Assembly (NCBI RefSeq): GCF_030687575.1
Contig: NZ_CP117439.1
Location: 1,550,001-1,614,000 of the forward strand
Source: Pseudomonas sp. FP2309
GTDB taxonomy: Bacteria; Pseudomonadota; Gammaproteobacteria; Pseudomonadales; Pseudomonadaceae
Direction: 5' to 3'
Length of the DNA: 64,000 nucleotides
A program made the position numbers and the translations under genes. The first letter of the stretch is position 1; each line of letters starts with the position of its first letter. The notes beneath the pieces were generated by a model. The model had not been told where the DNA came from. It saw only the letters and a program-made list of their open reading frames with translations, and made no database searches. Shown here one piece after another: positions 10,212 through 58,609 of the stretch.

Positions 10212-10301
10212 GGAGAGATGCCAGAGTGGCCGAATGGGACGGATTCGAAATCCGTTGTACCTTCACCGGTACCTAGGGTTCGAATCCCTATCTCTCCGCC
10301 A
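10212..10301 (+). tRNA. tRNA-Ser (anticodon CGA)
   Basis: A 90-nt class II tRNA. The acceptor GGAGAGA (10212-10218) pairs with TCTCTCC, followed by discriminator G and an encoded CCA. The anticodon stem ACGGA/TCCGT holds loop TTCGAAA, giving anticodon CGA (codon UCG). There is a long variable arm and the T-arm GGGTTCGAATCCC. The 3' part is the insertion target of the following element, which rebuilds the tRNA on this side. Confidence 0.97.
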
Positions 10302-10304
10302 TTA
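10276..10304 (+). repeat. attL core, 29-bp direct repeat in the tRNA-Ser 3' end
   Basis: These 29 bases, from the GGGTTCG of the T-arm to ATTA just past CCA, recur exactly at 58581-58609. A tRNA 3'-end duplication with a tyrosine integrase gene just inside it is the classic footprint of tRNA-targeted integration. Confidence 0.95.
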
Positions 10305-10495: not shown

Positions 10496-11344
10496 ATGAG
10501 TTACGACGCTAAGGTTTTTAACGTGATGGTTGCTTCACCTGGGGATGTCCTAGCTGAGCGAGCAGTTTTCCGTGAGGTCATCCACGAATGGAACGCCGTC
10601 CATTCTGAAGCGAGGAAGGTTGTACTCATGCCAGTCGGTTGGGAAACTCATTCTTCTCCGGAAATGGGGGGCGGCCCTCAAGACATCATCAACAAGCAAG
10701 TACTTCACAGCTGCGATCTTTTGGTAGGTATTTTCTGGACTAAAGCCGGCACTCCTACAACGGAGTTTGCCAGTGGAACGATTGAGGAGATTGAAAGGCA
10801 TTTAGCCGCTGGGCGCTTGGCTATGTTGTATTTCTCCAGTACACCAGCTGTGATGGATGATGTTGATCAAGAGCAGTATCAAACTCTGAAGGCATTTAAA
10901 GCATCCTGTCGAGGGCGTGGCCTGTTCGAGTCTTTTGAAAGTCTCGCTGAGTTTCGTAGTAAGTTCTCCAGACAACTGCAACAAAAACTCAACGCTCACG
11001 AAATGTTCAAGCTTGCACAGGTTCAGCTTCCGAGTGCAAAGCCTGGGCCACTAGGCACTTTTCCTGCGGCGACTCAGTCGCTGACGTTGGAAGCTAGAAC
11101 TCTGCTGAAAGAAGCAAGCCAGGATCCGCAGGGCCAGATTATCTATATTCACCTTTTAGGCGGATCTGTGCTGCAATCAAACGGTAAAAGCTTCATAGAG
11201 AGTGCTGAGCGCCGAGTGATTGCAAGGTGGGAGGCTGGGTTGAATCAACTCAAGAGCGAAGGGCTGATCATTCCGCGGGGAAAGGGCGAGATCTTCGAGA
11301 TCACGGCAAAGGGTTATGAGTTCGCCGATAAATTAGACTCCTGA
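10496..11344 (+). CDS. DUF4062/TIR-like domain protein, putative phage-borne defence or stress gene
   Basis: 282 aa. The N-terminal half (KVFNVMVASPGDVLAERAV..., then SCDLLVGIFWTKAGTP and SGTIEEIERHLAAGRLAMLYF) has the alternating strand/helix order of DUF4062/TIR-like domains: an SPGDV loop, a central strand ending in GIFW, and an acidic TIEEIE helix. The C-terminal 100 residues resemble a winged-helix module (VIARWEAGLNQLKSEGLI...FEITAKGYEFADKL). It is transcribed alone, opposite to integrase, in the slot between att and int that often holds accessory genes. Function is unproven; defence is inferred from fold and place. Confidence 0.55.
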   Translation: MSYDAKVFNVMVASPGDVLAERAVFREVIHEWNAVHSEARKVVLMPVGWETHSSPEMGGGPQDIINKQVLHSCDLLVGIFWTKAGTPTTEFASGTIEEIERHLAAGRLAMLYFSSTPAVMDDVDQEQYQTLKAFKASCRGRGLFESFESLAEFRSKFSRQLQQKLNAHEMFKLAQVQLPSAKPGPLGTFPAATQSLTLEARTLLKEASQDPQGQIIYIHLLGGSVLQSNGKSFIESAERRVIARWEAGLNQLKSEGLIIPRGKGEIFEITAKGYEFADKLDS

Positions 11345-11397: not shown

Positions 11398-12624
11398 TCA
11401 GCCATCATTGTTTTCCCGGAAACCCAGCATCTTCGAAACGATACCCGCCATGCTCTTGGTGTCCTTCGGTATCCATCGCCCGTAATGCTTTCGTACCATA
11501 GTTGTATCGGCGTGCCCCAGTTGCCTGGCCACCCATTCGACCGGAACATAACTTGACAGCATCTGGCTGGCAAACGTGTGGCGGCATTGGTTGGCACCTC
11601 GGTGGCGAACCTCTGCTTTTTTAAGATGGGCAGTGAACCAGTTGCTCAAAGTTTTGCCGTTCCAAAGTAACCCGCTGGTCGAACTGCGGAAAAGGAACCT
11701 GACCTTCATCTTCTTGGACGTGATGTTGTCGCGCTGGATAACGGTGATTTCCTCGGCTACCGTGTCCTTGGCGGCGGCAACTATCTCCCGCATCAGTGCT
11801 AGGGCCGGGTCTATAAGCTCGATGACTCGAACCCTGGAGCGCTCTTTGGGGACTTTGAACTCGCCCACGACCAATGCGCGTCGCACGTGCACCAGGCCGG
11901 CATCCAGGTCTACATCTTCAGCGGCAAGCCCAATTAGCTCTGAAAGGGACATCCCGGTCCAGCAGTTGAACTCAATCATCCTGGTATCAGGCCGGCGGTT
12001 GGTGTCCGTCTTGCTGATCAGTTCGATCTCGGTGCGACTGAAGGGGTCGGCATGCTCCAGGTCGACATCCGATCCGACGTTACTGATCCTGTCGAGTGGA
12101 TTGGCCTTCAAGATGCCGTCGCCGAAGGCGTCCGCCCACACACCACGAACGACGGTGAAAATGTCGTTTACTGTCTTCGGGGCCAGGCCCTGTTTGAGCA
12201 GTTGTGCTTGAAACAACTCAATGTCGCTCTTGCTGATGTCGACGATTCGACGTTTGCCGAACTTCTTTTCTACGTGCACAGCCTTGCTCACGTAGTTGAT
12301 GACAGTGCTCGACGCTTTAAGCGCGCGCTGAACCTCCAGCCAGCGCTCAATGCCTTCCTTTACAGTGCGCTTGAGCGAAGGGCCGCCGGTTCCAGTGAAC
12401 ATCGCGGCCCTTGGCGAGTTGGGAAAGTGAGCCGCATAGTCGAAGCGGCCCTCTTTGATTTCCGCGAGAATGGTGCGCCGCTTGTTGTCGGCATACGAGA
12501 TCGCGGACTTATTGACTTTCGAGATGCCTTCCAAAGGTTCCCTGCACCGCTGGCCGTTAAAGATGAACCAAATGCGTAGCTGCTTGCCATTCATCTCAAC
12601 GCCGGTCGGCATCTTGTCGATCAT
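11398..12624 (-). CDS. int: Tyrosine recombinase/integrase with N-terminal DUF3596-type arm-binding domain
   Basis: 408 aa. The first 65 or so residues (LRIWFIFNGQRCREPL...) form an arm-DNA-binding domain, then a SAM-like core-binding domain (about 75-175) and the catalytic domain. Catalytic-domain marks are QCRHTFASQML (box II Arg-His), RQLGHADTTMV and the nucleophile in RKHYGRWI. At box I, where most family members have TGxR, this protein reads TGMS, so the first catalytic arginine appears to be serine. It overlaps the upstream excisionase gene by 4 bp and should drive insertion at tRNA-Ser. Confidence 0.93.
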   Translation of the reverse strand: MIDKMPTGVEMNGKQLRIWFIFNGQRCREPLEGISKVNKSAISYADNKRRTILAEIKEGRFDYAAHFPNSPRAAMFTGTGGPSLKRTVKEGIERWLEVQRALKASSTVINYVSKAVHVEKKFGKRRIVDISKSDIELFQAQLLKQGLAPKTVNDIFTVVRGVWADAFGDGILKANPLDRISNVGSDVDLEHADPFSRTEIELISKTDTNRRPDTRMIEFNCWTGMSLSELIGLAAEDVDLDAGLVHVRRALVVGEFKVPKERSRVRVIELIDPALALMREIVAAAKDTVAEEITVIQRDNITSKKMKVRFLFRSSTSGLLWNGKTLSNWFTAHLKKAEVRHRGANQCRHTFASQMLSSYVPVEWVARQLGHADTTMVRKHYGRWIPKDTKSMAGIVSKMLGFRENNDG

Positions 12625-45875: not shown

Positions 45876-46061
45876 ATGGAAACTGCCTCCCACCATTTGA
45901 ATGTCCTGCCCTCTCAGCTTCTCGCGGCGGCCTCGCGAGGAGAGATTGACCTTAACGAATTGGCTGCTGTTGTGTTGGCTGGTCGTGGGCTTGATCACAA
46001 CGCAACCTGGGTAGGGTTCCCGGCGGCCGCTCAACTGCTCGAGCAGCACTTACAGGGCTAA
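45876..46061 (+). CDS. Small conserved hypothetical protein
   Basis: 61 aa from the ATG at 45876 with AAGGA eight bases before. HHLNVLPSQLLAAASRGEIDLNELAAVVLAGRGLDHNATWVGFPAA resembles small proteins seen repeatedly on Pseudomonas accessory DNA (pattern LA...RGLD..G.WVGF). Function unknown. It is convergent with and overlaps the HMCES-like gene by 4 bp. Confidence 0.7.
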   Translation: METASHHLNVLPSQLLAAASRGEIDLNELAAVVLAGRGLDHNATWVGFPAAAQLLEQHLQG

Positions 46062-46759
46062 TCATCCGCTGATGACAACGGGAGCAGTAGCTCGGCTCCC
46101 TGATGTTTCACGTTCCCTACCTCTTTGCCAACGGCATACCACTCAAAATCCTCGGTTGGCTGGCAGCACTCAGTGGCTATTTCTTGAGCGCGCTCTGGCG
46201 CAAGACCTGGATCCAGCCACTCCCTGGCATGCTCAGGCGTCAGCACCAAAGGCTTGCGATCATGGATGTCCACCATCCCTTGGTCGCTGGCGGCGGTTAT
46301 GATCACGAAACCGTCTCCTTCGTGGGGCTCCAGGCCAAGGCTCACTTGGGCGAGCGCCCCGAAAAACATGGGTTTCTGACTTTTCAGGCGAATGAAGTAA
46401 GGCTGTTTCTTCTTCGGATCGTCAGGGTCTTTGACCCACTCATACCAACCTTCACTCGGCACTACGGCTCGGCCATTCGGCCACAGTTGCTTGAAAAACT
46501 TGCCCGTAGTGACCGTCTCCACGCGGGCGTTGATCGGATCGGGGCGTTTGCCCTTGGCCCAGAACGGCGCCCATCCCCATTTGACGGCATCGATATGCAG
46601 GCCAGTCTCTGCGGCGTGCAGCACTTGCACCCGTGTCGTTGGAGCGACGTTGTAGCGATTGATCGGCACGGCGTCGTACCCACTGAATAGCTCTATCTGT
46701 GGGTTTAGCTCTTCGATAAAGATCGCCATCCCTTCGTACTGCACGAATCTTCCGCACAT
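46058..46759 (-). CDS. SOS response-associated peptidase, YedK/HMCES family
   Basis: 233 aa from the ATG at 46759, so that the start is MCGRF with the catalytic Cys2 exposed after Met removal. NVAPTT, WGWAPFWAK, INARVET and CVVPSEGWYEW-like (AVVPSEGWYEW) blocks match the family, as does DIHDRKPLVL near the end. It forms a covalent thiazolidine crosslink to abasic sites in single-stranded DNA. A LexA box is shared with the divergent umuD. Confidence 0.93.
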   Translation of the reverse strand: MCGRFVQYEGMAIFIEELNPQIELFSGYDAVPINRYNVAPTTRVQVLHAAETGLHIDAVKWGWAPFWAKGKRPDPINARVETVTTGKFFKQLWPNGRAVVPSEGWYEWVKDPDDPKKKQPYFIRLKSQKPMFFGALAQVSLGLEPHEGDGFVIITAASDQGMVDIHDRKPLVLTPEHAREWLDPGLAPERAQEIATECCQPTEDFEWYAVGKEVGNVKHQGAELLLPLSSADD

Positions 46760-46824
46760 ACGCACCTCTCCACTTGTCGAAATCCCCTACAGAAAAATTG
46801 ACCGCAAGCGCCTTACAAAGTTAA

Positions 46825-46840
46825 CTGTACATTCATACAG
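46825..46840. promoter_or_regulatory. LexA (SOS) box between HMCES-like and umuD
   Basis: CTGTACATTCATACAG is a very good match to the LexA consensus CTGTATATATATACAG. It lies 20 bases before umuD and 65 bases before the HMCES-like start, so it can control both. Confidence 0.88.
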
Positions 46841-46860
46841 TAATTGTAAAAGGCCGCATC

Positions 46861-47286
46861 ATGAGCTTCACCATTCTTGGTCCCATCGCAGAAGTCGGCG
46901 CGAAGCTGCCTTTGTGCTCGTTCCAGGTTCCGGCCGGCTTTCCTTCGCCTGCAGCGGATCACATTGAGCAGCACATCTCATTGGATGAGGTCCTGAATAT
47001 CCGTGCGCCCCACGTGTACCTGGTAGCAATCACCGGTGAGAGCATGCAGGGTATCGGGATCTTCGATGGTGACTTGGCCGTGGTGGATCGTGCCATTGAG
47101 CCTATGCATGGGCACGTGGTGGTGGCCCTGCTGAACAATGAGCCTGTCTGCAAGCGCTTGTGTAAGCGCGGCCGGGAGATCGTCCTGCTGTCCGAAAACC
47201 CCAAGTTCCCCGCACGCTACGTTCTTGAAGGCGACGAACTGTCGATCTGGGGCGTCATCACCAGCACAGTGCGCAGCCATGTCTAA
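46861..47286 (+). CDS. umuD: UmuD-like error-prone polymerase V subunit / autopeptidase
   Basis: 141 aa. [22 protein letters not shown] holds the Ala-Gly self-cleavage site. Ser is in [15 protein letters not shown] and Lys in EPVCKRLC. After RecA-assisted cleavage UmuD' joins UmuC to form Pol V. It overlaps umuC by 8 bp. Confidence 0.95.
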
Positions 47287-48556
47287 GCACGAGCCAACCT
47301 TTGCACTGATCGACTGCAATAGCTTCTATGCCAGTTGCGAGCGGGTATTCCGGCCCGACTTGGCGAAGGTGCCCATAGTGGTGCTCAGCAACAACGACGG
47401 TTGTGTCATCGCCCGTAGCTACGACGCCAAGCCTTTCATCAAGATGGGTCAGCCTTATTTCCAAATCAAACACAAGCTCAAGCAGCACGGCATTGTCGCG
47501 TTCTCCTCCAACTATGCGCTTTACGGCGATATGAGCGAGCGTGTGATGAGCCTGATCGAGGCGATGGTGCCGGCAGTTGAGGTGTACAGTATCGACGAGG
47601 CATTCGCCGACCTGACTGGTATAGACGGACTGGATGCCCTAGGCCGGCAGATACGGGCCCAGGTGCTTCGTTGCACTGGTATCCCGGTCGGTGTTGGTAT
47701 CGCTCACACTAAGACCTTGGCGAAGCTCGCAAACCACACCGCGAAGCGCCTGCAGTCCCAAACTGGTGGGGTGGTCAACATCACCGAACCGGTTAAGCGT
47801 GACTGGGTGCTACGCAATACTGACGTGGCGGAAGTTTGGGGCGTTGGCCGCAAGATGAAACTCCATCTTGATGCCATGGGTATCAAGTCAGCTATGGACC
47901 TGGCTAAGGCCGATCCGTGGACGCTCCGTAAGAAGTTCAGCATTGTGATCGAGAAGACGGCCAGGGAGTTGTCCGGTACTCCTTGCCTGGAGCTGGATGA
48001 GCCGGATCCGCCAAAGCAGGAGATCTGCTGCAGCCGCATGTTCGGCAAGAGGCTGACGGAGCTGCCGCCCATCAAAGAGGCGGTGGCCACCTATATGATG
48101 CGTGCATCTGAGAAACTCCGGGCTCAAAACTCGCTTTGCAAGAAGGTACGAGTGTGCATCCGCACTGGCATGTTCAACCCGGAGGAGGCGAAGTATGCCA
48201 ATGGGGTGGTGGTGGATATGCCGTATCCCACTGATGATGTCCGGCTGTTAACGCAGGCAGCAGTGGGTGCGCTTGATCGGATATTTAGGCCCGGCTTCAA
48301 GTACAGCAAGGCAGAGGTTATTTTGCTCAACTTGTGCCAACCCGGCGAGTACTCCGATGATCTGTTTGCAATGTCGCAACCAGCCGAGTCAACTCGAGTA
48401 ATGATGGTGCTGGACGAGATTAATGGTCGGTGGGGTAGAGGGACATTACGCTCGGCCAGTGTGCCGTCGACCCCAGCTTGGGCTATGCGCCGGGAGATGA
48501 TGAGCCAGAGCTACACGACCAAGCTAGATCAGCTTTGGTCGATCACATGCAAATAA
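47279..48556 (+). CDS. umuC: UmuC, DNA polymerase V catalytic subunit
   Basis: 425 aa from the ATG at 47279, full length. [51 protein letters not shown] (catalytic Asp/Glu) and [20 protein letters not shown] are Y-family signatures. It replicates past DNA lesions with mutations. It is the last clear phage-region gene. Confidence 0.96.
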
Positions 48557-48815
48557 CGACATCTTTCGGCGTGCTTGAGCCTAACGTGATACCGCCATGC
48601 AGGAACGTACCGCTGCCGGGCAGCACAGGCAGAAAACGGCCAATAACTGCCATTCGTGAATCGCCGCCTCAGGCCAAAGCGGTTGTACAAGCTGTTCACC
48701 AAGCAGTCCTGTTTCGTCTCCACTTGCTATCGCATTTGTAATGTTGCGTCCAAGGGGCTCAATAGTTCGCTTTAGGGTGTACCATCAGACTCTACTCATC
48801 AGATATCAGTCAGTC
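48557..48815. other. Junction between phage region and cargo, no gene seen
   Basis: A 259-bp gap follows umuC. I searched it for a copy of the tRNA-Ser 3' end, which a tandem insertion would leave, and found none. There is no strong terminator and no strong promoter that I can defend. Confidence 0.6.
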
Positions 48816-49250
48816 ATGTCCACGCTTAGCGAAGAGAGCCGCCAGATCGTAGCTTCTCTGGCGCAGAGTGTCGGTCTTAAAGCTGACACTGCAAGCATCG
48901 CCGAGGCGATTGTTGCGAAATTGCAGGCTATGGACGCAGCCCTTACGCCGATTATTGGCCAGCAAGGGGTTGTCGCCCTGTTCCGGCGCAGTTTGCATCT
49001 TTGTATTTCTGCTAATCCGCGTCTCTCTGGCACCTATGACAGTCTGCCGGCCTCGATGGATGTTACTGCCCTTAAATCCGTACTCGTCGAGCAGCAGGAC
49101 ACCGAAGCACTGTTCTTTGGTGAAGTGTTGTTGACTACTTTCTACGAGCTTCTGACCACACTGATCGGGCCCTCGCTCACCGCTAGTTTGCTTCGTGGCG
49201 TGTGGGAAACTTCTTTGAGCGACACCCCCTCGCAGGAAAATTCGCCATGA
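48816..49250 (+). CDS. KaiC-cluster small helical protein of unknown function
   Basis: 144 aa from the ATG at 48816. It is almost all helical: LSEESRQIVASLAQSVGLKADTASIAEAIVAKLQAM, then LTPIIGQQGVVALFRRSLHLC and FGEVLLTTFYELLTTLIGPSLTASLLRGVWET. It overlaps the KaiC-like start by 4 bp, so the two are translated together. It is not KaiB-like. A role as partner or regulator of the ATPase is inferred from coupling only. Confidence 0.6.
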   Translation: MSTLSEESRQIVASLAQSVGLKADTASIAEAIVAKLQAMDAALTPIIGQQGVVALFRRSLHLCISANPRLSGTYDSLPASMDVTALKSVLVEQQDTEALFFGEVLLTTFYELLTTLIGPSLTASLLRGVWETSLSDTPSQENSP

Positions 49251-50707
49251 GCACCAAAGTGACTATCAACCGTCTGGCCACCGGCGTGCCTGGACTGGAC
49301 GAGGTGCTGGGCGGAGGATTGCCAGAATTTTCGTTCAACTTGATCGCCGGCCCTCCTGGTTGCGGTAAGACCACGCTGGCCCACCAGATGATGTTTGCCC
49401 TGGCAACGCCCGAACGCCCGGCGCTGTTCTTTACCGTTCTAGGTGAACCGCCACTGAAGATGCTACGTTATCAGCAGCAATTCGACTTTTTCGACAGCGA
49501 AGCGATCAACCAGTCAATCCGTTACATCAACCTGGCCGCCGATACCCTAGCCGGGGATCTGGACGAGGTGCTGCGGCGCATAGTCAGCGAAGTCGAAACG
49601 CATTCGCCGGCGCTGGTGTTTGTCGATTCGTTCCGCTCCGTGGTGCTGGCCAGCCAGACCCAGGACAACCCCAACAACAACCTGCCGCAGTTCGTTCAGC
49701 AACTGGGCATGCTGATGACGACTTGGCAAGCGACGACGTTCCTCATCGGCGAGTATTTCACTGAAACCGACACCAACCCGATTTTCACCGTGGCAGATGG
49801 CCTGATCTGGCTTCGACAAAGCGTTCAGCGCAACTCCATGGTACGCAAGCTGGAAATCATGAAGATGCGCGGCCAACCGACGTTGCCGGGCCTGCACACC
49901 TTCCGCATTGCAACTTCCGGGATCAAGGTTTTTGCACCCGTAATAGCTACCCCGTTTGATACGCCGCTGGAATCACCGATCAAGCGCCTGAACATGGGGG
50001 TCGCGCGGCTCGACGAGATGCTGGGGGGTGGCCTGCCTCGGGGCTATTCGTTGCTGGTGGCCGGGCCATCGGGGTCAGGCAAAAGCATTCTCGCAGCGAC
50101 CTTCCTCGCCGAAGGCGCGCGCAATGGCGAAACTGGCGTGATCGCAGTATTCGAACAACGGCCCAATCACTCGCAGAATGCGACCCTATCTGGTTTGATT
50201 GAGAGCGGGCAGGTCGGTCTGGTGGATAGTCGCGCTCCCGATCTTTCGATTGACGAAATTGTCCAGCTATTGCTCGGCGAGATCACCCGGCTGAAAGCCA
50301 CTCGCGTGGTCATCGATTCGCTGTCGGGCTTCGAACTGGCAGTGGCGCCGACCTTTCGCGAGGATTTTCGCGAGTCGCTGTCGCGCATGGTCACGGCGCT
50401 GACCAATTCCGGGGTCAGTGTATTGATGACTTCGGAGCTGGAAGATCGTTACACCGATCTGCGTTTCAGCCCTTACGGCACGGCGTTTCTGACGGATGCA
50501 ATCATCGTCCAGCGCTATATTGAGGTGGAGAGCCGGTTGCTGCGCATCATGGCCGTGGTTAAGGTTCGCGCCAGTGCGCACTCTGATGAGTTACGTCAGT
50601 ACTTCATTGATGATAACGGTCTACACATCGGTGACATGTTGCCGGAGCAAGAAGGTTTGCTCGGTGGGCGACCGACAAGGCAGATTTTGAGCAAGGTCGA
50701 CAGATGA
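49247..50707 (+). CDS. KaiC-like double RecA-fold ATPase
   Basis: 486 aa from the ATG at 49247. Two KaiC/RadA domains: Walker A AGPPGCGKTT (about 34-43) and AGPSGSGKS (272-280); Walker B LVFVDSF (123-129) and VVIDSLS (354-360). The repeated TGVPGLDEVLGGGLPE and GVARLDEMLGGGLPRG mark each domain start. By eye, the KaiC catalytic Glu pairs read GE (LGEPP) and EQ (FEQRP), and the CII autophosphorylation pair Ser-Thr aligns with Ala-Phe before LTDAIIV. So it should bind ATP but not run the cyanobacterial phosphorylation cycle. It stands between a small helical protein and a histidine kinase. Confidence 0.9.
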   Translation: MSTKVTINRLATGVPGLDEVLGGGLPEFSFNLIAGPPGCGKTTLAHQMMFALATPERPALFFTVLGEPPLKMLRYQQQFDFFDSEAINQSIRYINLAADTLAGDLDEVLRRIVSEVETHSPALVFVDSFRSVVLASQTQDNPNNNLPQFVQQLGMLMTTWQATTFLIGEYFTETDTNPIFTVADGLIWLRQSVQRNSMVRKLEIMKMRGQPTLPGLHTFRIATSGIKVFAPVIATPFDTPLESPIKRLNMGVARLDEMLGGGLPRGYSLLVAGPSGSGKSILAATFLAEGARNGETGVIAVFEQRPNHSQNATLSGLIESGQVGLVDSRAPDLSIDEIVQLLLGEITRLKATRVVIDSLSGFELAVAPTFREDFRESLSRMVTALTNSGVSVLMTSELEDRYTDLRFSPYGTAFLTDAIIVQRYIEVESRLLRIMAVVKVRASAHSDELRQYFIDDNGLHIGDMLPEQEGLLGGRPTRQILSKVDR

Positions 50708-50717
50708 GCGAAGAATA

Positions 50718-51743
50718 ATGAGTGAGGCCAGCGGCGAGAATGAACAGGCTTTAGCCACTGCTGCACGCGAACTGCTCCTACTGGGCCGAAAAACGGTCGC
50801 GGCTCGTGCGGTACTCGCGGCGCTGCATAAGGAACTCAGCGAAGCTAACAGCCAGCTTGTTGATAGCTTGCAAGTCGAGCAACTTATTGAGGCCAATCAG
50901 CAGTTAGTGTTGGCAATTTTATCGGCGCAGTCGGATGTTGAATATCAGAAAAACGCTCAGGCAGAACAGCATCTGTACTTGGAAATGCGTGAAGCCAACG
51001 AACAATTGGTTATAGCAGCGCTTAGCGCCCAAGATTTACAAATTGCAGCTGAAAACGCACTGGAGCAGCAGCGCAATGTCCTCTCTCTAGTGGCCCACGA
51101 GCTGCGAAATCCACTGACGCCCATAAGCATGATTGCTGGCCGGCTGGTGCGGGTTCCCCGCGAAGAATTGCCACGCATGCAGCTACTGATTGAGGGCCAA
51201 GTAAAGCAGATGTCCCGATTGGTGGAAGATTTGCTCGACATTGCTCGGGCTACCACCGGTAAATTTCGCCTCAACTACCAAGTTATTAACATGGCTGACA
51301 TCATTAGTGACGCAATAGCAATCTGTACTCCGGTCATGCTCGCCCACGGCTTAAATTTCAGCTCTGAACTCTTGGAATCTCGTTTAGCGGTGAACGGCGA
51401 TCCTGTACGGATGACGCAGGTTCTTGATAATTTGCTGGGTAATGCGGCCAAGTACACGCCGACGGGCGGCACTGTCAAACTTGCCGTTTCCGTTGACGCC
51501 AATCTGCTGGAAATTCGCATTCGGGATTCCGGCATTGGTATCTCAGCCAAAGCGCTGCCTTTCATCTTTGAGCCGTTTGTCCAAGATGTTCATGCCGTGG
51601 GTTTCAATGGAGCGGGCTTAGGCATTGGTCTGACGGTGGTGCGAGAGTTGATTGAAGCCCATAGCGGAACAGTTACTGGCACAAGTGCGGGGGAAGGCAA
51701 GGGAAGCGAATTCGTAGTGAAAATACCGCTGTTAAATCTTTAG
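50718..51743 (+). CDS. Soluble sensor histidine kinase of the KaiC-like cluster
   Basis: 341 aa with no membrane segment. The first 115 residues are coiled coil with three related units (EANSQLVDSLQVEQ, EANQQLVLAILSAQ, EANEQLVIAALSAQ). The H-box LVAHELRNPLTPI has His127; N-box LDNLLGNAAKYTP, G1 IRDSGIGI, F-box FIFEPFVQ and G2 GAGLGIGL follow. No response regulator lies nearby, so it must signal to one elsewhere. Its start is 10 bp after the KaiC-like stop. Input may come from the KaiC-like protein through the coiled coil; that is inference. Confidence 0.9.
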   Translation: MSEASGENEQALATAARELLLLGRKTVAARAVLAALHKELSEANSQLVDSLQVEQLIEANQQLVLAILSAQSDVEYQKNAQAEQHLYLEMREANEQLVIAALSAQDLQIAAENALEQQRNVLSLVAHELRNPLTPISMIAGRLVRVPREELPRMQLLIEGQVKQMSRLVEDLLDIARATTGKFRLNYQVINMADIISDAIAICTPVMLAHGLNFSSELLESRLAVNGDPVRMTQVLDNLLGNAAKYTPTGGTVKLAVSVDANLLEIRIRDSGIGISAKALPFIFEPFVQDVHAVGFNGAGLGIGLTVVRELIEAHSGTVTGTSAGEGKGSEFVVKIPLLNL

Positions 51744-52003: not shown

Positions 52004-52864
52004 TCAGTGCAGTCGTCCTGTAAATCGCTCTTCAGGGGATCCGGCAGCTAAAACGGCTTCGGCTTTTATCAGCGTGCCATCGAAATCTGTCGGCTTATCC
52101 AGCCCTATCCGTGCGCTGGTGCTGTACAGCGTTGCATAACCGGGGCCCCCTAATACTGGGCAAGTGGTCTGAACACACGGGGATTCGATCACACGGTCAA
52201 CTCTGCCGTCTGGCGCGTACCGCACCACCCTGCTGCCGCCCCATTCGGCATTCCAGAGAAAACCCTGCGCATCAATACAAGAACCGTCTGGAGCACCCTG
52301 ACCGTTGACTGTAGTGAATACACGCTGGTTTTCCAGCGACGGGTAATCGCAGCAGAAAATGCATCCTTGCAGGGAGTCCGCGTAATACATGGTGGAACCG
52401 TCCGGGCTAAAACAGATGCTGTTCGGGATCGCCACTGCGGGAAGGTCCAGAGTTTCTGTCTCGAGCGCTGCCGCGTTGAGCCGATGAAATCTGCCTATGG
52501 TTTGCACCTGCTCACCGGCGTCCATTGTGCTGAATACAAAGTTGCCCATGCGGTCGCAGCGGCCATCATTGATCCGGGTTCCTGGCACGCCAGGGGTGGC
52601 TGTGATTTTGCTGAAACGACCAGTACTCAGGTTGCAATAACCCAGGCAGGAGGCCAATCCCATTAGCAATACGTCTGCATTTGTCGTAAGGGCAAACGAT
52701 CCCAGCGGCTCCGGCAGTGACCAGCGCTGCACTTCACCGCTAAAGGGGTCCAGAGCAAGCAACTCGCAGCCGGGGATATCGGTCCAGAACAGGCGTTCGG
52801 TTCTTTCACACCAGACAGGGCACTCGCCAAGAAGACTGGTGGTGCCGGTTAGGGTTTTAAACAT
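52004..52864 (-). CDS. SMP-30/gluconolactonase family hydrolase
   Basis: 286 aa. LGECPVWCERTERLFWTDIPG (metal Glu), RINDGRCDRMGNFVFSTMD, IPNSICFSPDGSTMYYADS and GAPDGSCIDAQGFLWNAEWGG are the six-bladed propeller signatures with the metal Asn and Asp. It hydrolyses a sugar lactone or related ester. It is the last gene of the amidohydrolase/transporter operon. Confidence 0.9.
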   Translation of the reverse strand: MFKTLTGTTSLLGECPVWCERTERLFWTDIPGCELLALDPFSGEVQRWSLPEPLGSFALTTNADVLLMGLASCLGYCNLSTGRFSKITATPGVPGTRINDGRCDRMGNFVFSTMDAGEQVQTIGRFHRLNAAALETETLDLPAVAIPNSICFSPDGSTMYYADSLQGCIFCCDYPSLENQRVFTTVNGQGAPDGSCIDAQGFLWNAEWGGSRVVRYAPDGRVDRVIESPCVQTTCPVLGGPGYATLYSTSARIGLDKPTDFDGTLIKAEAVLAAGSPEERFTGRLH

Positions 52865-52903
52865 GGTTGCGTCCTACGAAACAGGATGGGGCAAACAAGG
52901 CAG

Positions 52904-53377
52904 TCAGTTGGAGAAAAGCGCTGACCACCTGTCACCGAACAGGGCGATGGCCAGTCCTGCGAGCATCACCATCGACCCGGCCAACTTGATGAGAGACACC
53001 GGCCTTTCCGATGCCCCCATCAATCCGAAATGATCGATAACCAGTGAGGAGATAATCTGCCCTGCGATAGCGAGGCCCAGCAGGGCTGACAGGCCGATTT
53101 TTGGCGCAAGCACCACATAACTAAGCAAGGCACCGGCACCCAGCAGACCGCCCAGCAGGCTCCACCAGGGCTGGGCAGGTATAGCCGCCAGTGAGGCCAC
53201 TATCCCGCCACGCATCAATGAAAAGACGCCCAGGAACACCGCTCCGGCAGTAAATGAGAACAGCGCCGCCGCTACGGAATCTCCACCCACACCTTTAGCG
53301 AGTTGACCATTCAGCGTGGTCTGCAGGGTAATGCCAAGCCCCGCGGCGATGGCCAGCAGGTAGTAAGCTGCGTTCAT
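52904..53377 (-). CDS. DMT-superfamily transporter, DUF606/YdcZ family
   Basis: 157 aa with five hydrophobic segments. It begins MNAAYYLLAIAAGLGITLQTTLNGQLAKGVGG, the family's N-terminal repeat, and ends LIKLAGSMVMLAGLAIALFGDRW. It is the half-size form that usually works as a dimer or pair. It is 11 bp after the amidohydrolase, so it likely carries that enzyme's substrate or product. Confidence 0.85.
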   Translation of the reverse strand: MNAAYYLLAIAAGLGITLQTTLNGQLAKGVGGDSVAAALFSFTAGAVFLGVFSLMRGGIVASLAAIPAQPWWSLLGGLLGAGALLSYVVLAPKIGLSALLGLAIAGQIISSLVIDHFGLMGASERPVSLIKLAGSMVMLAGLAIALFGDRWSALFSN

Positions 53378-53388
53378 TTCGCGCCTCC

Positions 53389-54786
53389 TTACTTGGCTGA
53401 CTCAAGCGGCATGAATGTCTCGGCAAAAATATCCGGCTGGTAGCCTGCGGCAGCAAACAGATGCTCACGGGATTCGTCGATTGCTGCACGCAGCCTTTCG
53501 CTGTCCACGCCCAGCACCTTGCCGCCGCGCTTGACGATGCGCCCGCCAATCATGACCGTGTCGACATTGCTGCGTTCGGCCGCGTGTACCACGGTGCCGA
53601 ATGCGTTACCCGACGGGTAAAGGTTGATGTCCTGCGCATTGATAAGGATCAGGTCGGCCTGTTTGCCGGGGGTCAGGGTGCCGACTTTGTCCTGCAATCC
53701 TGCACAGGTGGCGCCGTCAAGAGTGGCGGCTTTGAGCAGGCCATGAGCCGGCAGGGTCACCGGATGATGCTCTGCGCCGCAGCAGCGCTGCTGGTGCATG
53801 CCCATGACGCGTTGCAGGTAGAACGCCACCCGCATCTCCATGAACATGTCACCGCTGTAGGAGGTTTCGTTATCGACACTCAGCCCCGGGCTGATGCCGT
53901 GACGCTGGGCCGACTGCATGGCGAACATTCCATCTTCAATGCCGTAGTGGGCATCTGAACGCGGGCATACGTTGACCCGCACGCCAGCCTCGCGAATGAT
54001 TTTCCAGCCGGCGTCCGGCAGCGCTGTGCAGTGGTTGAAGATGTTGTCGGGGCGCAGCAGACCCTCGCGATGCAAACCCTCCAACTCAGCTGCCATGTCC
54101 CCGCCGAAGAATTCGGTAATGATCGGCAGCCCCAAGCGCCGGGCTTCAGCCCATAGCTCAGGCTCCAGCTGCGCCATTACCGCCAGCGAGAGCAGCGGGT
54201 TGTCAACGTTCTTGACGTATTTCCCCTGGAGACGCTCCAGGTTGCCGGGCCAGTGGGCTTTGTCCCACTCACCAGAAACTGGCGCACCGGAGGCGTGTAC
54301 AGACCGGATACCAGCATCGAGCAGCGCCTCGACCGCGGCGTCGGAGTGCGCGCCGGTGCGGCTGTTGTGCGAGTTATCGACCACGGTCGTGATGCCCGCA
54401 TCGATGCACCCCAATGCAGTCAGTAGATTGCCGATATACATGTCAGCCGGGCGATAGTATTTGGCGAACGAGAAGTGCGTTGCGTTGCAGTAGTCTTCCA
54501 GGGTTTCGGCATTCGGATTGATTCGACGCAGTTGGCCCTCCCAGGAGTGACGATGCGTATCGACCATGCCGGGCATGGCAATCATGCCGGATGCCTCGAT
54601 AACCATAGCGTCGCCGGCCTCGATGTTTTCACCTATGGCCGTGATGGTGCTGCCTTCGATAAGGATATCGCCGCGCGCCAGATTGCCGATATCACCGTCC
54701 ATGCTCAGCACAGTGGCGCCGCGGATAAGGGTGCGGGCGGCCGGAGCGGCCGGGGCCTGCACAATGCTGCGGTTATATTCAGCCAT
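53389..54786 (-). CDS. Amidohydrolase (cytosine deaminase/TRZ-ATZ-like)
   Basis: 465 aa. MPGMVDTHRHSWEGQLR carries the first metal site (HxH), NIFNHCTALPDAGWKII the later His, and SPGLSVDNETSYSGDMFMEMRVA replaces the usual metal Asp/Asn block. GTLTPGKQADLILINAQDINL is the C-terminal signature. Family members hydrolyse or deaminate N-heterocycles such as triazines, guanine or adenosine analogues. It leads the operon and diverges from a LysR gene. Substrate unknown. Confidence 0.88.
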   Translation of the reverse strand: MAEYNRSIVQAPAAPAARTLIRGATVLSMDGDIGNLARGDILIEGSTITAIGENIEAGDAMVIEASGMIAMPGMVDTHRHSWEGQLRRINPNAETLEDYCNATHFSFAKYYRPADMYIGNLLTALGCIDAGITTVVDNSHNSRTGAHSDAAVEALLDAGIRSVHASGAPVSGEWDKAHWPGNLERLQGKYVKNVDNPLLSLAVMAQLEPELWAEARRLGLPIITEFFGGDMAAELEGLHREGLLRPDNIFNHCTALPDAGWKIIREAGVRVNVCPRSDAHYGIEDGMFAMQSAQRHGISPGLSVDNETSYSGDMFMEMRVAFYLQRVMGMHQQRCCGAEHHPVTLPAHGLLKAATLDGATCAGLQDKVGTLTPGKQADLILINAQDINLYPSGNAFGTVVHAAERSNVDTVMIGGRIVKRGGKVLGVDSERLRAAIDESREHLFAAAGYQPDIFAETFMPLESAK

Positions 54787-54931
54787 TTTCTGTACACCTC
54801 TTCAAATTTCGTTGGAAGCAATGTACGCAATGCGATACTGCGGGAAAAAGATGGTTAAACTGTTTTTATTATTCAATATCTACGAATAATAACGACTTTA
54901 CCCGATCACTGCTTTGAGGCTGCTAACAGTC

Positions 54932-55843
54932 ATGGACCGTATTCAAGCGATGCAGGTTTTCGTACGTGTGGCTGAAGCAGGAAGCTTTATCCAGGCGGCG
55001 CAGACGCTCTCTCTGCCGGCCTCGACAGTTACCAGCAGCGTCAAAAATCTTGAGAAGTACTTGCAGGTGCGCCTGCTGAACAGAACAACGCGTCGGGTCA
55101 GCCTGACCTCTGAGGGCGCACAATATCTGGCGCAATGCCGGGAAATATTGGAGCTGATCGAACACACAGAGACCAGCCTGACGGATTCCGTAAAACGGCC
55201 ACAGGGGCGTTTGCGTGTCGATATGCCGGGTGGCATTGCACACTTCATCGTCATGCCAAACCTGCAAGACTTCTACAGGCGCTACCCGGATATCTACCTG
55301 ATGATAGGCGTCAACGATCGGCAGGTTGATCTAGTTCAAGAGGGTGTCGATTGCGTTATTCGTACAGGCGAGCTCGATGACTCAACGCTCGTTGCGCGCC
55401 CACTCGGTCGGTTTCGGTGGGTAACCTGTGCGTCTGCCGCCTATCTCGAAGAGAACGGCACTCCGCAAAATCCGCAAGATTTGTCTCACCACCGGGCCAT
55501 CCATTACTTCTCGGGCCGCGCAAGGCAAGCAGGTGAAATGCGCTTTGCCCGTGGTACCGAAAAAATCTCAGTCCCGGTGAACGGCACAGCGGCCGTCAAC
55601 GAGACTGGGCTTTACATCAAAATGTGCCTTGAAGGCTTCGGGCTGGTGCAGCTCGCTGAGAATGTGGTCAGCGAGCATCTGCGAGAAGGGCGACTGGTCG
55701 AAGTGCTTGCTGGCTGGCAGCCCGCATCGGTTCCTGTGCACCTGCTATACCCGCATCAGCGCTTTTTATCGCCAGCTGTGAGCGCATTCGCTGACTGGAT
55801 TGCTGGGCTTGTTCGCGAAGATGATTCAGCAGATTCAAGTTGA
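54932..55843 (+). CDS. LysR-family regulator
   Basis: 303 aa from the ATG at 54932. MDRIQAMQVFVRVAEAGSFIQAAQTLSLPASTVTSSVKNLEKYLQVRLLNRTTRRVSLT is the HTH of the LysR CrgA-like group, followed by the periplasmic-binding-like effector domain. It is divergent from the amidohydrolase operon across 145 bp and so likely controls it. Its last 88 bp overlap the end of the convergent MFS gene. Confidence 0.92.
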   Translation: MDRIQAMQVFVRVAEAGSFIQAAQTLSLPASTVTSSVKNLEKYLQVRLLNRTTRRVSLTSEGAQYLAQCREILELIEHTETSLTDSVKRPQGRLRVDMPGGIAHFIVMPNLQDFYRRYPDIYLMIGVNDRQVDLVQEGVDCVIRTGELDDSTLVARPLGRFRWVTCASAAYLEENGTPQNPQDLSHHRAIHYFSGRARQAGEMRFARGTEKISVPVNGTAAVNETGLYIKMCLEGFGLVQLAENVVSEHLREGRLVEVLAGWQPASVPVHLLYPHQRFLSPAVSAFADWIAGLVREDDSADSS

Positions 55844-57003
55844 ACGTTGCGCCCGGCCAGCATGCCGGTGAATGCGCCGACTACGGAGATTGCGGCTGTG
55901 ATCAGCAGCGGTGCTGTCCAGCCACCGGTCCAGTCGTGCAGTTGGCCCAGTAGCAATGGGCCTGCGGCTGCCATCAGGTAGCCGACGCACTGCGCCATTC
56001 CTGAAAGTGCCGCCGTGTCACCGGCATTTTTTGTGCGCAAGCCGATGAAGGTCAGGCCGAGCATCATGCTGGCACCAGAGCCGAAGCCCAAGACCGCGGC
56101 CCACAACATGGCGTAGTCTGGCGCGTAAATGAGCCCGATCAGGGATGAGGCGGTTAACAGGCTGACGGTAGCGGCTGCCAGTTTCTGGTCTTTGAGACGG
56201 CGAAGCGTGGCCGCCAGAATCAAGCCGGGAATGGCCGTGGTCAGTTGAAGCGTGCCGTGTACCGTGCCTGCTTGCTCCGGGGATATGCCATGGTCCATCA
56301 GAATGGTCGGCAGCCAGCCGACGGCGACATAAAAAGGCATCGCGTTCAGCCCCATGAACAGTGTGACCTGCCATGCCAGCGGCGAACGCCAGACGGCCAC
56401 GGTTGGCGCTTGTTTCGGACCTGACAGATTTACGTGTTCGTGTTTTTTCAACTGCGGCAGCCACACCACCAGCGCCAACAACGGGGCTGCGACCAACAAA
56501 CTCAGGGCAATCGGCCATCCCCATGATTGGGTCAGCGGAATTATTACGGCTGAACCGACAGCGCCCGCTGCACCCATCGTGATGGAATAAGCGCCGGTCA
56601 TGGACGCCATTTTTGTCGAGAAGTCGCGTTTGATCAGGCCGGGCAGCAGCACGTTGCCCAGGGCGATCCCAGTGCCTATCAATATCGTACCGCCGTACAA
56701 CGCCCACGCGCTGCCTGCGGAGCGGAGCAGGATGCCCGCTGAAATGACCAACAGTGCAGCGAAAAGCGTGCGCTCGATGCCGAACCTGCGGGCGACCGAT
56801 GCGCTGAGCGGGGAGAAGGCTGCAAAGGCAAGTAATGGCAGTGAAGTAAGCAGGCCTAGAGCTGAGGCGCTCAAGCCAAAATCATTCTGGATCAGCGGCA
56901 AAACGGGCGCGATGCTGGTAAAGGGAACGCGCAGGTTCACGGCGATAAGCAGAATGCCTGCGACGAGCGCGATGGCATGCCACTTGTTTTTTGTATCTGA
57001 CAT
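55756..57003 (-). CDS. MFS exporter of the CynX/NimT family
   Basis: 415 aa from the ATG at 57003 with GAGGA upstream; about 12 membrane segments. ILLIAVNLRVPFTSIAPVLPLIQNDFGLSASALGLLTSLPLLAFAAFSPL is the CynX/NimT start. E. coli NimT exports 2-nitroimidazole and pairs with a divergent AraC regulator, NimR, as here. The 3' end overlaps the LysR gene on the other strand by 88 bp. Confidence 0.9.
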   Translation of the reverse strand: MSDTKNKWHAIALVAGILLIAVNLRVPFTSIAPVLPLIQNDFGLSASALGLLTSLPLLAFAAFSPLSASVARRFGIERTLFAALLVISAGILLRSAGSAWALYGGTILIGTGIALGNVLLPGLIKRDFSTKMASMTGAYSITMGAAGAVGSAVIIPLTQSWGWPIALSLLVAAPLLALVVWLPQLKKHEHVNLSGPKQAPTVAVWRSPLAWQVTLFMGLNAMPFYVAVGWLPTILMDHGISPEQAGTVHGTLQLTTAIPGLILAATLRRLKDQKLAAATVSLLTASSLIGLIYAPDYAMLWAAVLGFGSGASMMLGLTFIGLRTKNAGDTAALSGMAQCVGYLMAAAGPLLLGQLHDWTGGWTAPLLITAAISVVGAFTGMLAGRNVQLESAESSSRTSPAIQSANALTAGDKKR

Positions 57004-57062
57004 ATTCTTTATCTGTCCTCTTAAAAGAAGACAACTGTAGAGAACTTCAGAACCGTCTAATA

Positions 57063-57087
57063 TAGATATCAAGACACCTGATATCTA
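57063..57087. promoter_or_regulatory. Perfect inverted repeat between NimT-like and AraC genes
   Basis: TAGATATCA and TGATATCTA are 9-bp perfect arms around AGACACC. The right arm ends five bases before the AraC-type ATG and the block is 60 bases before the exporter. It is a fitting operator for the AraC regulator, controlling itself and the exporter. Confidence 0.78.
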
Positions 57088-57091
57088 AATT

Positions 57092-57886
57092 ATGCCAAGC
57101 TCAAAAAATGTCGTTTCCTCGCCGGAAGATTTCGATTCAGACCTTTTCGCCCAGGCAGCGATTGCCCTCAAGGTTGCGCCTGACCTCAATGATTCGGGTG
57201 CCCGTCCGCATGATCATCGCAAAGGCCAGCTCATCCTGTCTTTGCATGGCGCAGTGAGCTGTGAGGTGCAAAATGCACTCTGGTTTGTCCCTCCCCAGCA
57301 CGCCGTATGGATCCCGGGCGGCACGCCGCACAGTTGCCGAGTGACCGAAAACGCCCGGACCTGCTTTCTGTTCGTTGAGCCCGGTGCGGCAGCCATGCCT
57401 GAAGAATGCTGCACGGTTGCCATTACGCCCCTTGTTCGGGAGATGGTCCTGCATCTCGCTGAACAGGAACCTGCTTACCATTCCGAGGGCAAGACAGCTC
57501 GGCTGGTTGCAGTGCTGCTTGAGCAGCTTTCCGATGCCCCGCTGAAAGAGCTGCATTTGCCGATATCAGACCACCCCAAGATCAAACAAATCGCGGATGC
57601 GCTCTTCTCAGATCCAGGCGACCGAACCACGTTGCGCGAGTGGGCCACTCGGCTTGCAACCAGTGAACGAACGCTGGCCAGGCTTGTAGAAAGCACGACC
57701 GGGCTGAGCTTCGGACGCTGGCGTCAACAATTGCATTTGATGATCGCACTGAGTCATTTGGCGGAGGGGGTATCCGTGCAACGTGTGGCGGGCATCCTGG
57801 GATATGACTCTGTTAATGCATTCATCACGATGTTCAAGAAAGCACTGGGTAAACCGCCTACTCAGTATTTTTCCTCTCTGCGCTAG
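57092..57886 (+). CDS. AraC-family regulator (NimR-like)
   Basis: 264 aa. An N-terminal cupin (HDHRKGQLILSLHGAVSCEV...WFVPPQHAVWIPGGTPHS) is followed by a double-HTH AraC domain (DRTTLREWATRLATSERTLARLVESTTGLSFGRWRQQLHLM...VQRVAGILGYDSVNAFITMFKKALGKPPTQYF). This matches NimR/YeaM-type regulators. It is divergent from the NimT-like exporter. Confidence 0.9.
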   Translation: MPSSKNVVSSPEDFDSDLFAQAAIALKVAPDLNDSGARPHDHRKGQLILSLHGAVSCEVQNALWFVPPQHAVWIPGGTPHSCRVTENARTCFLFVEPGAAAMPEECCTVAITPLVREMVLHLAEQEPAYHSEGKTARLVAVLLEQLSDAPLKELHLPISDHPKIKQIADALFSDPGDRTTLREWATRLATSERTLARLVESTTGLSFGRWRQQLHLMIALSHLAEGVSVQRVAGILGYDSVNAFITMFKKALGKPPTQYFSSLR

Positions 57887-58580: not shown

Positions 58581-58609
58581 GGGTTCGAATCCCTATCTCT
58601 CCGCCATTA
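58581..58609 (+). repeat. attR core, 29-bp tRNA-Ser 3'-end duplicate
   Basis: Exact copy of 10276-10304, from GGGTTCG to ATTA. It is only the 3' fragment of the tRNA; the sequence before it is not tRNA. It marks the right end of the element. Confidence 0.95.

Follow-up and report, generated by a model that had tools for sequence, protein, structure and literature searches.

A conserved, modular KaiC-kinase operon with a fixed small partner protein in Pseudomonas and its relatives

The SasA design is that of a kinase whose KaiB-like N-terminal domain reads KaiC, and outside cyanobacteria KaiC often works without KaiA or KaiB. In Pseudomonas, KaiC-like proteins have published stress and biofilm phenotypes (Terrettaz et al. 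2023, via PMC11832031 and PMC11372060), and a KaiC 'three-component system' of Pseudomonas putida joins KaiC with a kinase and a response regulator (PMC2949598). The DNA analyzed here is a stretch of 64,000 nucleotides (the window) from Pseudomonas sp. FP2309 (NCBI RefSeq assembly GCF_030687575.1, contig NZ_CP117439.1, positions 1,550,001 to 1,614,000), whose genome of 5.66 Mb is a single contig. The window carries a trio of genes for a small helical protein, a double-domain KaiC-like ATPase and a soluble histidine kinase (Table 1). The trio is a real, conserved and modular signalling operon of the KaiC-kinase kind, and the comparison of its relatives makes it moderately probable that it would work as a KaiC switch set by the ATP state and served by a dedicated small regulator, with interchangeable kinases that read the switch by way of a coiled-coil signature.

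A preliminary description of the window, made from its letters, had proposed a tightly spaced operon of three genes, and the coordinates agree: all three lie on the forward strand, the small gene and the KaiC gene overlap by 4 nt (ATGA), and 10 nt separate the KaiC gene from the kinase gene in the list of open reading frames (ORFs). In Pfam, the KaiC protein matches PF06745 twice (E 9.9e-63; 212 bits against a cut-off of 26.6), and the kinase has the HisKA (6e-12) and HATPase_c (1.4e-24) matches that define a histidine kinase.

Evidence for the pairing comes from outside Pseudomonas. A genome scan with a six-member KaiC alignment, covering one genome per species and picking loci by two KaiC peptides, returned 519 relatives among the 590 stretches listed, of which the 80 that ranked highest in comparison with the Paracoccus KaiC were retained (the wide loci). 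A small-family gene lies upstream of KaiC and ends within 260 nt in 78 of these 80 loci; in the remaining two the contig stops short, 28 nt (L137) and 184 nt (L145) ahead of the match. The loci fall into 11 phyla (Acidobacteriota 25, Pseudomonadota 18, Verrucomicrobiota 18, Planctomycetota 9, Myxococcota 3, Bacteroidota 2 and five phyla with one each), many being metagenome bins for which single phylum assignments are unsure. Plasmid records add the order small gene, KaiC and GGDEF-kinase in Caballeronia, and small gene, KaiC, HWE kinase and response regulator in Paracoccus, the small protein being judged by alignment in both. Furthermore, a small gene adjoins KaiC in eight more gammaproteobacterial genomes (G379, G425, G471, G506, G574, G609, G851 and G934); a 797-aa open frame in G851 that would have been a small-KaiC fusion was ruled out, the small gene lying upstream in another frame. 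As a negative control, the 20 kb examined around the second KaiC of the window genome contain no gene of the small family.

Within the genus, the small gene occurs in 52 of 298 genomes, the window genome included, and 60 of the 63 further small genes were retrieved, mostly with about 20 kb of surroundings. KaiC follows directly downstream in 57 of the 60 (frameshifted in L037), a kinase lies downstream in 57 as well, and gene spacing is almost constant in most copies. Most copies are 91-94% identical to the window in KaiC and about 60-80% in the small protein and the kinase; mean pairwise identities over 51 loci are 89%, 66% and 65% for KaiC, small protein and kinase. Gene distances correlate between small protein and KaiC (r 0.76 in 78 wide loci, 0.89 in 51 Pseudomonas loci) and between KaiC and kinase (r 0.86 in the 51 loci), with values as high in 0 of 999 permutations, which demonstrates joint inheritance but not binding. 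Neighbours beyond the trio vary: clustering of 872 ORFs (each at least 150 aa long) drawn from the 60 regions placed no other family in more than 14 of them, and tRNA or tmRNA genes occur in nine without pattern.

The small partner had been called undescribed, and the family libraries bear out that it belongs to no named family. The window protein has no match in Pfam, NCBIfam, PADLOC or PHROG (libraries other than Pfam were queried with this protein only), six canonical small proteins gave one chance match in Pfam (E 0.17), and no description was found in the literature searched, the key Pseudomonas and archaeal hub papers lying outside that search. A protein search with one canonical member found 1695 clusters, the names among the 120 matches listed all being 'hypothetical protein'; with the window protein it found 301, with TetR regulator and trehalose synthase as stray names among the 120 listed. 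A hidden Markov model built from 14 non-Pseudomonas members detects 60 of 60 Pseudomonas small proteins at E <= 1.2e-6. Additionally, 16 of the 80 wide loci carry a second copy of the family (L115, L118, L120, L123, L125, L146, L149, L176 and eight others); 15 of the 16 are titled Acidobacteria or a genus thereof, and two of the eight copies printed lie on the opposite strand.

These properties also bear on an alternative, which we consider unlikely, in which sensing falls to the small protein, as a helical bundle of ligand- or redox-binding type, and KaiC serves as a scaffold by which the state of that protein is amplified for the kinase. The position of the small gene at the head of the operon, its much faster evolution than KaiC (66% against 89%) and the second copies would fit such a role, but no binding fold is recognised, neither of two predicted models of the protein finds a solved fold in Foldseek at E <= 0.001, and 45 of 55 downstream ORFs in the relatives have a PAS match of their own.

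Walker A and B are present in both domains of the window KaiC and in every pattern listed (the 12 commonest per motif) for 57 Pseudomonas and 80 wide KaiCs. Alignment with solved KaiCs places the CI Glu-Glu pair at Gly66-Glu67, the CII pair at Glu303-Gln304 and S431/T432 at Ala413-Phe414; the HMMER alignment has a one-residue gap in the CII pair, such that the Gln is either the replacement or a neighbour, with one Glu lost either way. The KaiC numbering used agrees with PMC5520375. An Ala-Phe autophosphorylation pair and a single Glu in each catalytic pair had been read by eye beforehand, and the alignment restored neither Ser/Thr nor the Glu pairs. Of these changes, Ala and Gln are peculiar to a Pseudomonas-containing clade, whereas Phe and the CI Gly run through the subfamily. 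Specifically, the 57 Pseudomonas KaiCs (the window copy and 56 full-length relatives, four shorter copies of the 60 being omitted) have Gly-Glu in CI and Ala-Phe at the phosphosite without exception, and Glu-Gln in CII in 56, with one Glu-Pro; all 80 wide KaiCs have Gly-Glu and Ser-Phe, with Glu-Glu in CII in 79 and Glu-Gln in one.

In the Pseudomonas-containing clade (Pseudomonas, Caballeronia and same-class relatives), the second CII Glu has become Gln, Lys or Pro and the Ser has become Ala or, once, Cys. In a tree of 63 rows (11 of the 57 Pseudomonas KaiCs, 40 of the 80 wide ones and all 12 others), a single branch supported at 99/99 separates off the 19 rows that have neither the Ser nor the second Glu; L002, the far outgroup, is also scored as having neither. 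Since cyanobacterial KaiC has Glu-Glu and Ser-Thr (PMC5520375), the direction is one of loss and not of gain. Because the last phosphorylatable residue at the site and the second CII Glu are both gone, the clade's KaiC is expected to act as a non-autokinase switch, and loss of autokinase activity is predicted there. Phosphosite loss alone is not new, as myxobacterial KaiCs include about 50 with neither phosphosite and about 60 with one (PMC11832031).

The kinase, to judge by domain content, is the variable part. For the window, a soluble kinase with three coiled-coil repeats and no KaiB-like input domain had been described, and the repeats (EANSQLV, EANQQLV and EANEQLV) are indeed read in the protein alongside the HisKA match. 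Among the wide loci, 55 have a downstream ORF of at least 240 aa within -60 to +260 nt (25 omitted), with Pfam matches to PAS_4 (45), HATPase_c (39), HisKA (30), receiver (16), HWE (11), HisKA_2 (10), HisKA_3 (5), GGDEF (2) and EAL (1), a few being other enzymes. The core is thus constant and the output variable, be it a PAS-HisKA, HWE, HisKA_3, hybrid or GGDEF-kinase. Only three columns of the downstream-ORF alignment are at least 90% conserved (N143, L146 and L156 in the numbering of the L107 kinase), and they sit between PAS and kinase core, with the consensus AMNEALLLxSxRQHELxEAA. A relaxed form of this signature, N-[ED]-x-L...RQ, occurs in 31 of the 55 ORFs against 0 of 2750 shuffled sequences and a strict form in 17, both patterns having been composed after viewing the sequences. 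By pattern and corresponding place, we take the EANxQLV repeats of the window kinase as the putative equivalent of the relatives' signature. Residues 1-121 of this kinase match 23 stretches, some being two pieces of one gene, in 11 of 15 chosen genomes, all of them at most 4.8 kb from a small gene; the four genomes that have no small gene gave no match.

Additionally, a GGDEF motif, and with it a link to cyclic di-GMP (c-di-GMP), appears in 6 of the 57 Pseudomonas trio kinases (L054, L055, L057, L087, L092 and L093), lying between two EANxQLV repeats in those whose sequence was printed; the N-terminus of the window kinase may accordingly be the surroundings of a removable domain. The earlier statement that the system has no local regulator holds for the window, where the ORF list read by eye has no receiver gene beside the trio, but not for the relatives, which have local receivers or c-di-GMP domains.

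The gene linkage, its conservation, the residue states and the kinase signature are directly established, and they are compatible with a model in which a KaiC-like double ring uses its two ATPase domains to sense the ATP/ADP state or some other cue. The helical protein of about 145 aa would be a dedicated KaiC regulator, in the place that KaiA and KaiB hold in the clock, and the soluble histidine kinase would receive the ring conformation by way of the conserved coiled-coil segment that immediately precedes its core. Output would pass to an unlinked response regulator in the window genome and, in relatives, to receivers or c-di-GMP domains that are linked, and KaiC of the Pseudomonas-containing clade would act as an ATPase or nucleotide-state switch, not as an autokinase. 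Formation of the ring and of the complex, the direction of signalling, ATP sensing, the loss of autokinase activity and the physiological output are what we infer here. More broadly, we judge it about evenly balanced whether the small family is a general partner of KaiC with at most one phosphosite, forming a two-gene core in at least 11 phyla with interchangeable kinase or c-di-GMP outputs and, in the Pseudomonas-containing clade, a pure nucleotide-state switch without autophosphorylation.

Several observations weigh against this account. The small gene and the kinase are kept beside a reduced KaiC in L041, L054 and L093, the kinase is missing in L056, L058 and L069, and the KaiC of G314 has no small gene in the 12 kb retrieved. 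Three rows break the joint rule for Ser and Glu: L175 and L101 have the Ser together with Glu-Gln and Gly-Glu, respectively, and L191, whose alignment is doubtful, combines Glu-Glu with Gly-Leu; the joint loss is, moreover, one event on the tree and therefore no independent sign that the sites are coupled. The relaxed signature is absent from 24 of the 55 downstream ORFs, and the His-box pattern used from 5 of the 57 Pseudomonas kinases. Finally, KaiB matches exceed the cut-off in two of four non-Pseudomonas genomes tested (G379 and G506), because of which the small protein is not a simple KaiB substitute everywhere.

A small protein kept with one KaiC subfamily over 11 phyla is a concrete candidate for a missing regulator of KaiC, and the natural Glu-Glu/Ser and Glu-Gln/Ala versions allow asking what autophosphorylation adds. 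The kinase signature, furthermore, is a testable candidate docking site, which could explain how one ATPase core serves many outputs.

Table 1. Features of the trio and of the element that carries it, in window coordinates.
Feature	Position	Strand	Description
Small helical partner	48816..49250	+	144 aa; no named family
Double-domain KaiC-like ATPase	49247..50707	+	486 aa; CI Gly66-Glu67, CII Glu303-Gln304, Ala413-Phe414
Soluble histidine kinase	50718..51743	+	341 aa; N-terminal EANxQLV coiled coil, HisKA, HATPase_c
Conserved 5' leader of small gene	48772..48815	+	TAGGGTGTACCATC ... ATCAGATATCAGT; most relatives
attL	10276..10304	+	29-bp 3' end of tRNA-Ser(CGA)
attR	58581..58609	+	identical 29-bp copy
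Integrase of element	11398..12624	-	named by eye

Ahead of the small gene, a comparison of 200 nt of upstream sequence from 61 copies found TAGGGTGTACnATC and ATCAGATATCAGT in most of them within the last ~44 nt before the start codon, and the exact AGGGTGTAC in 34. The leader at 48772-48815 has no clear Shine-Dalgarno sequence, and it may perhaps combine a promoter -10 with a leader.

The trio had also been placed on a mobile element, which is right for the window, where it lies within a tRNA-Ser element (10276-58609); among Pseudomonas copies, carriage as phage cargo is rare. Paired copies of TTAGGGCA near both ends (10371 and 10382, 58469 and 58480) resemble integrase arm sites. By eye, the element runs from the integrase through a contractile-tail phage module, lysis genes and umuD/umuC-like genes to the trio and catabolic genes. 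An empty site has thin support: in G011 the 50 bp downstream of attR stand immediately behind tRNA-Ser, at 92%, and a search of further relatives did not find this flank behind theirs. The window tail or lysis proteins, at a coverage of at least 35%, are encoded in none of the 60 Pseudomonas regions (about 20 kb each); in one of these (L059), a relative of the integrase (63%) lies at a distance of 9 kb. On one IMG/VR contig, related tail and lysis genes are followed by an IS3-like pair (by eye) and, at the contig end, by the small gene and KaiC. The trio is thus mobile on occasion and phage cargo only rarely. Three regions were named by eye: a SRAP/HMCES-like protein with a umuD/umuC-like pair just before the trio (46058-48556; SOS cargo); a SMP-30-like lactonase, short EamA-like membrane protein, amidohydrolase, LysR and AraC regulators and MFS transporter in the right part of the element (52004-57886; metabolic cargo); and an ORF adjoining the integrase, of DUF4062 type by reading (10496-11344).

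The position of the trio behind the phage genes of a prophage, and of the small gene and KaiC after a related tail-lysis module on the IMG/VR contig, could suggest a phage-carried defence or superinfection-exclusion system. We regard this as improbable: PADLOC matches are weak and cover P-loop or GHKL stretches only (best 40.7 bits), 2 of 50,697 phage records match KaiC, both being RadA at 27%, four scans of viral contigs led to two distinct contigs, and relatives of the trio are spread widely beside PAS kinases.

The absence of KaiB claimed for the window also stands. In searches with PF07688/PF07689, no KaiB match was found in 11 of 11 trio-bearing Pseudomonas genomes (the window genome and 10 others) and no KaiA match in the window genome. 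The KaiB control gave a signal in 6 of 14 genomes, above cut-off in one; for KaiA, Synechococcus elongatus was the sole control genome to give one. A hidden KaiB partner was rejected: of the loci scanned, a single-seed search of limited sensitivity placed KaiB close to KaiC in G379 alone. There (L099), a KaiB-family gene lies upstream of KaiC at a distance of 2.7 kb, with no other seen so near; the KaiB match of G506 sits on another contig. The window KaiC scores 146 bits against a cut-off of 546.25 for the clock family TIGR02655, and it lacks the adjacent Ser/Thr pair in CII and a complete catalytic Glu pair in either domain, with no KaiA or KaiB match in its genome. Similarly, the kinase scores 116 bits against a cut-off of 342 for NF006800/PRK09303, which we take to be SasA, with a match that begins at model position 114 of 383. 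The C-terminal stretch EGLLGGRPTR aligns with the end of clock KaiC, its A-loop. That the trio is a timer or clock of KaiBC type is nevertheless highly improbable, since the KaiC fold, this C-terminal likeness, the finding that Ser431 alone can suffice for the Synechococcus clock (PMC11832031) and the KaiB matches in two of four non-Pseudomonas relatives are set against missing KaiB and KaiA matches in the Pseudomonas and window genomes, the loss of both phosphosites in the Pseudomonas-containing clade and the distance from TIGR02655.

Novelty is claimed only for the small family, for its fixed pairing with this subfamily of KaiC and for the signature that the kinases share. With cyanobacterial KaiC and SasA, the trio shares two fused KaiC domains, Walker A and B in both, and a kinase beside or reading KaiC; it differs in having no KaiA or KaiB match, one Glu lost per pair, Ala-Phe for Ser-Thr, a kinase coiled coil in place of a KaiB-like domain, and a dedicated small partner. 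The KaiC-like proteins of Terrettaz et al. 2023 come from the same genus and may belong to this subfamily; P. protegens encodes an 89% relative. As in the P. putida three-component system (PMC2949598), KaiC lies beside a sensor kinase; by description, the second KaiC of the window genome looks more like that type than the trio KaiC does. This second protein (L196:8632-12297; G000:C1 2994631-2998296) is 28% identical to the first and has a hybrid histidine kinase-receiver directly downstream, with a separate receiver behind it on the opposite strand. The archaeal KaiC-like hubs (Makarova et al. 2017, via PMC5847659) likewise tie a KaiC-type ATPase to varied signalling outputs, whereas the system described here is bacterial, double-domain and joined to a fixed small partner.

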